The notes below the pieces were generated by a model. The model saw only the letters and a list, made by a program, of their open reading frames with translations. It was not told the DNA's origin and searched no databases. DNA of 64,000 nt from NCBI RefSeq assembly GCF_008831285.2, contig NC_045148.1, positions 19,895,002 to 19,959,001 on the forward strand. The letters are read 5' to 3'. Made by a program: the position numbers and the translations under genes. Of this stretch, positions 20,845-24,156 are shown piece after piece (position 1 is the first letter of the stretch; the number at the start of each line of letters is the position of its first letter). Origin of the DNA: Nymphaea colorata (lineage: Eukaryota; Streptophyta; Magnoliopsida; Nymphaeales; Nymphaeaceae).

Positions 20845-21316
20845 ATATGCCCAATAAAAGCCTCGATGCCCTGCTGAAAGGTAGCTTCTTGACTTCTTTC
20901 CACATGTACATATTTCAATACACATCTAGAGCTCATCTATAAGGCACCAGTTGCCTTTGATAATCTAGAAGAACGGGTTAAAGGTGTGGGGAAAGCAAGA
21001 AAGAGAGGGAGGAAGAGAGAATGTTAGAGAGAGAGAGAAAGGTTAAATTAAACCATGTGCAGATGCAGAAGATCGCATATTGTTGGACAGGGGAAAGAGG
21101 TTCAATATCATCATGGGAATTGCAAGGGGAATCCTTTATCTTCACCAAGATTCTCGACTCAACATCATTCACCGGGATCTCAAGGCTGGCAATGTGCTGC
21201 TAGATGAGCAACTGAATCCTAAAATTTCTGACTTTGGATTGGCAAGGATTTTCAGTGGAGTTCACGGGCAAGCAACTACCAGTGTTGTTGTTGGCACATA
21301 GTAAGTTCAAGACTAC
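20845..21316 (+). repeat. Direct duplication flanking the foldback element, left copy
   Basis: This 472 bp covers the last 36 bases of exon 4, intron 4, exon 5 and 16 bases of intron 5. It recurs at 23681-24156 with few differences. The two copies directly border the inverted-repeat element, like a very long target duplication. Confidence 0.9.
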
Positions 21317-23678
21317 TAACGCCCATGATCTCTTTCCTTTTTCTTTATTTATGGAAAACATTAATAGGGGGAAGAATTATAAACGGCAGATTTAATTGAG
21401 GGTTACGTAAAATGAAAACTGACAATTAAATCATAGCGGAAGCAGTTTTGGAAAGAAAAGAAGGGGAAAGAAACAACTGACGGGGTGATTGATTTCCTTG
21501 TGAGAGATTGAAAATTTGTCATCTCTTATTGCTGCAGCCCTCAACGGGAGACTCCAACGACAAGAGAAAGAAAGAAAGGAAGAGAGAGAGAGAGAGGGGC
21601 GTCCTCATCTTTGCCCTCTTTCTAGTTGAAGATTGAAGTGGTTGGCTGCTAGAAACGGACGAGAAGCAAAAGGGGAAGTCATTTCGGAATCAAAAAAAGG
21701 TATGGGAATGTTCAACTATGAATACAGCATGAAGCCGTGTATTTCTGATTTCTTATAGAAGCTATATTTATGTAGATCTATGTATCTTAGTGCATGAATA
21801 TGAATCTATGCATGAGTTGTAGTATGGGGATTTTCAGCCATGATTGAAGCATGAAGCCATGTATTTTGATCTCTTATAGATACATATATACTTAGAAGAT
21901 GAATCCATGTAGGGAAATTTCAGTTATGCATGTATCATGAAGCATGCGTATTTTGAGTTATTGCATATACATATACAAGTGAATCTATGTAAGGGATGAA
22001 TCCATGAATAAAATGCCATATATGGAGATGATATGTGATGTTTTTAGATCTAGTAATCTCTGGTTTCTTAGAAATAAGCATCATGGTGGGTGTTAGTATA
22101 AGATGGATGTTGAAACTCTGTGGCGTAGATTGTTAAAGTTGTTCTCCTTGTTTCCGTTTGTTATTCAATCTGTGAAAAACTAAGACTAGGGCCAACCTTA
22201 GAACCGAGCATACATATATGAGATCAGAAGAGTTGCGATAGAGATTTCAAGCTAACTACAAAAAAAAAAAAAAATGTGTTTATCAACCCTCATAGAGGGT
22301 CTGGCCTTCGACCGTGCGATACAAAATGAATTTGGAAAGACTCTATTGTCTTCCCGAGCCTACTATGATACAAAGAAAGAGGGGAGGAAATACCCCAACT
22401 CCATCGACGAGCAGAACCTGTCACCGATCGACTGGAAACCGGTCGTTTCCTTGTGGGGGTAGCAGAGGTGAGTTGGGGAAAATAAGACACGGCGCTGTGA
22501 GGAGTTCCTCCTGCCGTTCCCTTTTCCTTGCTGGTTCCTCCCTGCTGCAGCGAGAAGGAGACTAGGAAGGAATGCGACAGGTTTTGCTCGTCGATGGAGT
22601 TGGGGTATTTCCTCCCCTCTTTCCTTGTATCATAGTAGGCTCGGGAAGACAATAGAGTCTTTCCAAATTCATTTTGTATCGCACGGTCTAAGGCCAGACC
22701 CTCTATGAGGGTTGATAAACACATTTTTTTTTTTTTGTAGTTAGCTTGAAATCTCTATCGCAACTCTTCTGATCTCATATATGTATGCTCGGTTCTAAGG
22801 TTGGCCCTAGTCTTAGTTTTTCACAGATTGAATAACAAACGGAAACAAGGAGAACAACTTTAACAATCTACGCCACAGAGTTTCAACATCCATCTTATAC
22901 TAACACCCACCATGATGCTTATTTCTAAGAAACCACAGATTACTAGATCTAAAAACATCACATATCATCTCCATATATGGCATTTTATTCATGGATTCAT
23001 CCCTTACATAGGTTCACTTGTATATGTATATGCAAGAACTCAAAATACGCATGCTTCATGATACATGCATAACTGAAATTTCCCAACATGGATTCATCTT
23101 CTAAGTATATATGTATCTATAAGAGATCAAAATACATGGCTTCATGCTTCAATCATGGCTGAAAATCCCCATACTACAACTCATGCATAGATTCATATTC
23201 ATGCACCAAGATACATAGATCTACATAAATATAGCTTCTATAAGAAATCAGAAATACACGGCTTCATGTTGTATTCATAGTTGAACATTCCCATACCTTT
23301 TTTTTATTCCGAAATGACTTCCCCTTTTGCTTCTCGTCCGTTTCTAGCAGCCAACCACTTCAATCTTCAACTAGAAAGAGGGCAAAGATGAGGACGCCCC
23401 TCTCTCTCTCTCTCTTCCTTTCTTTCTTTCTCTTGTCGTTGGAGTCTCCCGTTGAGGGCTGCAGCAATAAGAGATGACAAATTTTCAATCTCTCACAAGG
23501 AAATCAATCACCTGTGAGTTGTTTCTTTCCCCTTCTTTTCTTTCCAAAACTGCTTCCTCTATGATTTAATTGTCAGTTTTCATTTTACGTAACCATCAAT
23601 TAAATCTGCCGTTTATAATTCTTCCCCCTATTAATGTTTTCCATAAATAAAGAAAAAGGAAAGAGATCATGGGCGTTA
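21317..23678. mobile_element. Foldback-type element with 1.1 kb inverted arms
   Basis: The left arm (21317-22422, starting TAACGCCCATG) is the reverse complement of the right arm (22576-23678, ending CATGGGCGTTA), with only scattered mismatches. The 153 bp loop (22423-22575) shows no gene. The arms contain about three degenerate tandem units (about 21710-22000) that repeat phrases such as GCATGAAGCC and CTTATAGA. Arms built from tandem repeats are typical of foldback elements. No transposase is visible, so it is non-autonomous. It lies after exon 5 of CRK-B. The ends do not let me assign a superfamily. Confidence 0.85.
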
Positions 23679-23680
23679 CA

Positions 23681-24156
23681 ATATGCCCAATAAAAGCCTC
23701 GATGCCCTGCTGAAAGGTAGCTTCTTGACTTCTTTCCACATGTACATATTTCAATACACATCTAGAGCTCATCTATAAGGCACCAGTTGCCTTTGATAAT
23801 CTAGAAGAACGGGTTAAAGGTGTGGGGAAAGCAAGAAAGAGAGGGAGGAAGAGAGAATGTTAGAGAGAGAGAGAAAGGTTAATCAAATTAAACAATGTGC
23901 AGATGCAGAAGATCGCATATTGTTGGACAGGGGAAAGAGGTTCAATATCATCATGGGAATTGCAAGGGGAATCCTTTATCTTCACCAAGATTCTCGACTC
24001 AACATCATTCACCGGGATCTCAAGGCTGGCAAAGTGCTGCTAGATGAGCAACTGAATTCTAAAATTTTCGACTTTGGATTGGCAAGGATTTTCAGTGGAG
24101 TTCACGGGCAAGCAACTACCAGTGTTGTTGTTGGCACATAGTAAGTTCAAGACTAC
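23681..24156 (+). repeat. Direct duplication flanking the foldback element, right copy
   Basis: Second copy of 20845-21316, with a 4 bp net insertion in intron 4. It has substitutions in the kinase exon: N to K in HRDLKAGN, P to S, and S to F just before DFG. Beyond 24156 the sequence continues as normal CRK intron 5, so this copy is contiguous with the original 3' side. Confidence 0.9.

Follow-up and report, generated by a model that had tools for sequence, protein, structure and literature searches.

The window, a 64,000-nucleotide stretch of Nymphaea colorata DNA (C11:19895002-19959001 in an assembly of 407.8 Mb and 783 contigs), is plant DNA located in a cluster of cysteine-rich receptor-like kinase genes. 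The gene that carries the insertion studied here belongs to this class; two ectodomain ORFs that were scanned matched the Stress-antifung (DUF26) model, and both copies of a kinase exon matched the Pkinase model. Other ectodomain-type and kinase-type ORFs were recognized in the window by eye. Upstream of the insertion, a copia-type LTR element, typed by eye from its gag- and pol-like ORFs, was found on the minus strand at 12106-17559, with LTRs about 91% alike, ends TGTTATAG...CCCAACA, and CACAT at both flanks.

Within the host gene, a direct duplication was found at 20845-21316 (472 bp) and 23681-24156 (476 bp), and the copies were 98.1% identical counting gaps, with 5 substitutions and one 4-bp indel on the alignment. 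The DNA between them forms an inverted repeat, whose arms aligned at 21317-22422 and 22576-23678 with 1089 matches, 14 mismatches, and 2 gap events. A near-identical 472-bp repeat that touches 1.1-kb inverted arms on both edges is far beyond chance. The original prediction had described a foldback element bordered exactly by this duplication, and the duplication proved to be real and to adjoin the insert exactly. The arms were correctly placed as inverted sequences, but the right arm goes on to 23680, its final two bases being the CA/TG of an LTR end, and the supposed 153-bp spacer is mostly LTR, comprising a continuation of the left arm to 22571, the bases AT, and two further right-arm bases. 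The order is the left host copy (D1, 20845-21316, plus strand), the left arm (21317-22571, plus strand), the extra bases AT at the fold-back junction (22572-22573), the right arm (22574-23680, minus strand), and the right host copy (D2, 23681-24156, plus strand).

The duplicated segment consists of the end of a kinase exon, the intron that follows, and a complete 238-nt exon, and D1 also takes in the start of the next intron. The complete exon, with boundaries placed by splice motifs, lies on the plus strand at 21063-21300 in the left copy (Pkinase, E 2.3e-14) and at 23903-24140 in the right copy (Pkinase, E 4.8e-12), confirming the earlier claim that an entire exon had been copied. Because 238 nt is not a multiple of three, a transcript with both exon copies would shift frame. 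The Asn of the HRDLKxxN motif is a catalytic-loop residue known as invariant in active kinases. The left exon copy retains HRDLKAGN, including this Asn, and the right copy reads HRDLKAGK, a change of Asn to Lys in the catalytic loop that is accompanied by Pro to Ser and Ser to Phe changes. When read by the paralogues, 4 of the 5 substitutions between the duplication copies were changes in the right copy and one was not polarised, and the 4-bp indel was a loss in the intron of the left copy relative to D2 and the paralogues. Just upstream of the duplication, the kinase exon at 20671-20884 carries a one-base frameshift in the assembly, either genuine or due to a homopolymer error. About 600 bp (roughly 18844-19460) interrupt the ectodomain exon of the gene, and part of this interruption (18840-19053) resembles the LTR of the copia-type element described above (77-79%). 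In the assembly, the host gene looks like a pseudogene.

The state of the locus before the insertion was reconstructed from paralogues. The segment 20621-21316 matched window positions 6249-6963, and the sequence from the right copy onward continued into 6643-8055. When the insert and one duplication copy were removed, the joined flanks matched this window paralogue in one piece through the joint; the paralogue carries the region once and is continuous across both boundaries. At C11:19852075 and 19859617, the left boundary and the segment were also found in one piece (the query lacked the right boundary). The empty arrangement in these paralogues indicates that the uninterrupted order is ancestral. 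The same part of the query did not occur twice within 3 kb elsewhere among the 68 matches listed (best 40 of 90 candidates), where the nearest repeat of one query part was a pair at C5:3677424 and C5:3680839, 3.4 kb apart and at 77% identity. No empty allele of the exact locus appeared among the matches listed (best 40 of 90 candidates), and the empty state rests on the paralogues.

A search of the whole genome with the left arm gave at least 62 matches, including at least 8 same-strand pairs 4.5-8 kb apart; the best 40 of 187 candidates were scored, so that these copy counts are lower bounds. The top three matches outside the window spanned the entire arm and continued beyond it, as LTRs that start with TGTAAC and go on for 2.5-3 kb. 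The left arm was 96.5-96.9% and the right arm 96.7-97.1% identical to the LTR copies L003, L004, and L005. Identity to the family LTR starts at nucleotide 1 in the right arm and at nucleotide 3 in the left arm, which lacks the terminal TG, and runs to about nucleotide 1110 and about nucleotide 1257, respectively; the right arm is reversed and has an exact TG/CA terminus at 23680. A GGGGGGGAGGA tract, which we take to be PPT-like, precedes some of the family LTR starts, and TGGTATCAGAGC or a near variant, presumably a tRNA-type primer binding site (PBS), follows several of the LTR ends. ORFs of the family matched Pfam models for gag, aspartyl protease, reverse transcriptase/RNase H, integrase, and chromodomain (matches in 8 of 9 ORFs, taken as they stand from L039, L046, and L032 and pooled over copies). 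Together, the LTR matches, the PPT-like and PBS-like sites, and the gag-pol-chromodomain ORFs identify the arms as LTR starts of a Ty3/gypsy chromovirus family, set head to head and covering ~1.11 and ~1.26 kb of an LTR that is ~3 kb long. The designation foldback element therefore does not fit, the arms being truncated, inverted LTR ends. Normal copies of such Ty3/gypsy chromovirus elements consist of LTR, internal region, and LTR, or of a solo LTR, with 5-bp target duplications. The insert has neither form: its two truncated LTR starts stand head to head, unlike a same-direction LTR pair or a whole solo LTR.

Two further arrangements were noticed among the family copies. Tandem arrays flank the L004 LTR copy on both sides (L035 and L036, C11:8083001-8103000); in L035 the spacing of the self-matches points to a repeat unit near 0.7 kb, and in L036 the spacing is less regular. 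At C14:8135001-8174990 (L031-L034), two LTR copies 20 kb apart have a common 5' flank, and one is followed by primer-site sequence while the other is apparently solo; this pair probably arose by segmental duplication and subsequent LTR-LTR deletion.

The target duplications of other chromovirus-family insertions were then compared with that at the locus. Six other insertions could be checked: 5 had exact 5-bp target duplications, namely L046 (CCAAC), L048 (ATATC, after the aligned LTR end was shifted one base to its CA), L043 (CGCAT), L040/L039 (GCAAG), and a copy at C9:23230170-23241690 comprising L044 and L045 (CATTG), and the remaining one, L034, had 4 of 5 bases (TTGAG/CTGAG). Left out of this scoring were L032, L037, L038, L041, and L042, for which the sequence at hand did not include the second outer end or the boundary was unclear, and L049. 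The 472/476-bp duplication at the locus stands against the 5 bp usual in the family, and the genome check thus contradicts the idea of an element that habitually makes long duplications. The C9 copy contains an inverted LTR piece, yet it keeps a normal 5-bp duplication, indicating that an inverted LTR is insufficient to cause a long one; this copy at first resembled a second case of inverted LTRs and was rejected for its normal duplication and internal inversion. L046 is more distantly related to the arms (about 80% across their initial 571 bp), and its LTR pair was identical over 2804 bp, which shows that the wider chromovirus family moved recently.

To examine the origin of the two arms, their differences were compared with 10 other copies of the LTR (L003-L012, several of which are neighbours on one contig and not independent; L013 onward was left out). 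All 14 arm differences were private to one arm, 6 to the left and 8 to the right, with the other arm agreeing with the family copies; the difference at 21400 is weak, since one family copy matches the left arm at that position. The arms also had a substitution in common at 8 further sites, where it set them apart from all the other copies in the comparison (10 copies for four of these sites, 4 copies for one, and 3 copies for three). The private differences and the 8 variants common to the two arms alone indicate, from the alignments, that both arms derive from one source sequence. The divergence of the arms (14/1103, 1.27%) was equal to that of the duplication copies (5/472, 1.06%; Fisher p = 1.0), and therefore one event explains both. 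With an assumed rate of 1.3e-8 or 6.5e-9 substitutions per site per year, the pooled divergence corresponds to about 0.47 or 0.94 million years. A tandem duplication followed later by an exact insertion at the joint was considered and is not needed, given the equal divergence of arms and duplications and the position of both edges at LTR termini.

The outer edges of the insert both correspond to the U3 end of the LTR. At the right junction, ...GGGCGTTACA is followed directly by ATATGCCC, which places the edge at the exact LTR terminus (TG/CA at 23680). At the left junction, ...GACTAC is followed by TAACGCCC, the same terminus minus two bases. By eye, microhomology with the host sequence amounted to 0 bp at the two outer junctions, and the central join of the arms showed a 2-bp filler and no microhomology. 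A query spanning the fold-back junction was matched in full at this locus alone among the 20 listed places, all 16 candidates having been scored.

These features suggest, with a probability of roughly 0.7, that the insert is the product of an aberrant, essentially one-ended integration of chromovirus LTR-retrotransposon DNA into a cysteine-rich receptor-like kinase gene. Integrase would have attached the U3 end whose CA lies at 23680 to the target between positions 20844 and 20845, and the opposite end of the cDNA would have been broken inside the LTR. The free 3' end at LTR position ~1110 would then have been extended by host repair synthesis, copying a second U3 fragment from LTR position ~1257 and stopping two bases before the U3 end, where a linear template would run out. 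Synthesis would next have moved onto the host sequence at 21316 and continued leftwards through the exon for 472 bp, and recombination with the chromosome would have left the host segment in two copies. We infer both the involvement of integrase and the order of these steps; the structure matches the repair-synthesis model at each stage, and its strand polarity agrees with it. The earlier suggestion of a one-off repair event with long fill-in thus stands, and repair synthesis of this kind remains the best type of explanation. Two other geometries were rejected. An intramolecular snap-back from the right arm after its integration does not fit the arm lengths, because the left arm is the longer of the two and a strand that stops at LTR 1110 cannot serve as template up to 1257. 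An ordinary integration of two concerted U3 ends should leave a 5-bp duplication.

Events of this kind are known from retroviruses in culture. According to PMC5041404, when the integrase of HIV is inhibited or weakened, the aberrant proviruses mostly keep one normal end. The other end is often truncated, and further viral DNA may be attached to it in either orientation. The aberrant end is most commonly accompanied by a host duplication of hundreds or thousands of bp, also by deletions and less often by inversions, and usually has short homology at the switch; in the proposed model, the free viral 3' end primes synthesis on nearby viral and host templates, followed by recombination (PMC5041404). 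The same source draws together HIV-1 (under a suboptimal integrase inhibitor or with weakened integrase) and ASLV (with a mutated DNA end) as cases with one normal end and another that is often truncated and attached to further viral DNA and is finished by host enzymes, with host duplications of hundreds to thousands of bp instead of 5, as in the 472 bp found here. At our locus, the right end is exact and is joined to the host as in a normal integration, and the other end is truncated and leads into further element DNA and into the duplicated host segment. The short homology that is usual, although not invariable, at the switch points of one-ended integration is absent. Compared with the HIV-1 and ASLV events as described there, the present case concerns a plant LTR retrotransposon in an assembled genome, is roughly half to one million years old on the assumed rates, switches without visible microhomology, and has U3 at both outer ends.

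Several observations weaken the case for one-ended integration. An LTR cDNA end bluntly ligated by end joining would look identical. The switches lack the short homology usual in HIV, and two bases were added. Both breakpoints fall within 150 bp in the LTR, which independent truncation does not predict, and a source copy with the 8 shared variants was absent among the 10 copies compared. As a single event, the insert gives no rate. A hairpin variant, which we put forward only tentatively, does predict the closeness of the breakpoints. A self-folded retrotransposon strand would have been joined by its single 3' CA end, and the target 3' end would have been extended by 472 nt through strand displacement and ligated to the 5' end of the hairpin. 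Such a hairpin would account for both U3 edges, the exact 3' terminus, the two-base 5' loss, the halves of 1257 (5') and 1110 (3'), arms identical at birth, and the long duplication. It is polarised in the same way as the repair-synthesis version and would explain the same facts with fewer joins. If true, it would represent an exon-duplicating insertion by one strand-transfer step without a double-strand break, and a natural one-strand integration capable of duplicating exons.

The main rival to one-ended integration is filler capture. In this scenario, two distant nicks left a chromosomal break whose ends were offset by 472 bp; the ends were filled in, and end joining trapped a pair of broken LTR cDNA fragments between them without integrase. 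Precedents exist in rice, where, according to the citing text, patch-mediated double-strand break insertions with tandem duplication were ascribed to asymmetrical nicks and end joining (Vaughn and Bennetzen 2014, cited in PMC7407515), and in mouse zygotes, where PMC4516963 reports retrotransposon sequence caught at breaks. The internal junction, with its 2-bp filler and lack of microhomology, also fits this route. However, capture leaves it to chance that the two outer edges sit so near the same U3 terminus (0 and 2 bases away), that the broken ends face inward, and that one edge is an exact TG/CA; the rice inserts, as cited in PMC7407515, come from nearby or ectopic DNA, whereas both edges here lie at a retroelement terminus. 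We consider this explanation unlikely.

Alternatively, the 472-bp segment could have received an ordinary insertion at its left end on one chromosome and, independently, an oppositely oriented one at its right end on another, the two then being merged by unequal exchange inside the inserts. By reasoning, an exchange between the left and right inserts gives segment, insert, and segment with exact edges, and the wider family is multicopy and recently active, as the identical L046 LTR pair attests. This history nevertheless needs sister copies sharing the 8 private substitutions within 472 bp of one gene, as well as a non-homologous join of inverted LTRs and the loss of a TG, and it appears improbable. 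An assembly or sequencing artefact, such as a palindromic read chimera or misjoined haplotypes, is less probable still. Palindromes and tandem copies are classic artefacts and the assembly is in many contigs, but the 14 substitutions between the arms are split 6 to 8 and accompanied by 2 gap events, where the copies in a chimeric read would be near identical, and the duplication copies differ as well, mostly through changes in the right copy as read by the paralogues. A genuine foldback or TIR DNA transposon whose target duplication is unusually long, for which the long near-perfect inverted arms and short middle would speak, was rejected as having almost no probability, since the arms are retrotransposon LTR ends, the other insertions checked show 5-bp duplications, a full match to the fold-back junction occurred once among the 20 listed places, and 472/476 bp is not a short, transposase-fixed duplication.

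FARE is a foldback element with long inverted arms. The insert shares such arms with Foldback and Galileo elements and differs from foldback elements in the LTR origin of its arms, in a duplication that is far too long, and in the lack of a second palindromic copy among the matches listed. Among the 62 matches listed for the left arm, 19 start at query position 1, and none of the 17 that remain after excluding the locus's own two has an opposite-strand partner within 10 kb. One-ended integrations would leave palindromes that could be mistaken for foldback elements.

Among the papers listed by searches of an open-licence library, none was on point for long or aberrant LTR-retrotransposon integrations, in plants or elsewhere, and no natural plant case with these features was among them. 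The present case, datable from its arms, suggests that the failure seen in retroviruses also befalls LTR retrotransposons in nature and copies whole exons. The interest of this one event lies in a route of exon duplication that can be tested and in a searchable signature, namely U3-only LTR fragments in inverted orientation with direct repeats of 0.1-10 kb on either side. Mu killer of maize likewise carries part of a mobile element as an inverted duplication, and its hairpin transcript was proposed to silence the family (PMC3440606). By analogy, the inverted U3 copies of the insert could produce hairpin RNA against their own family.
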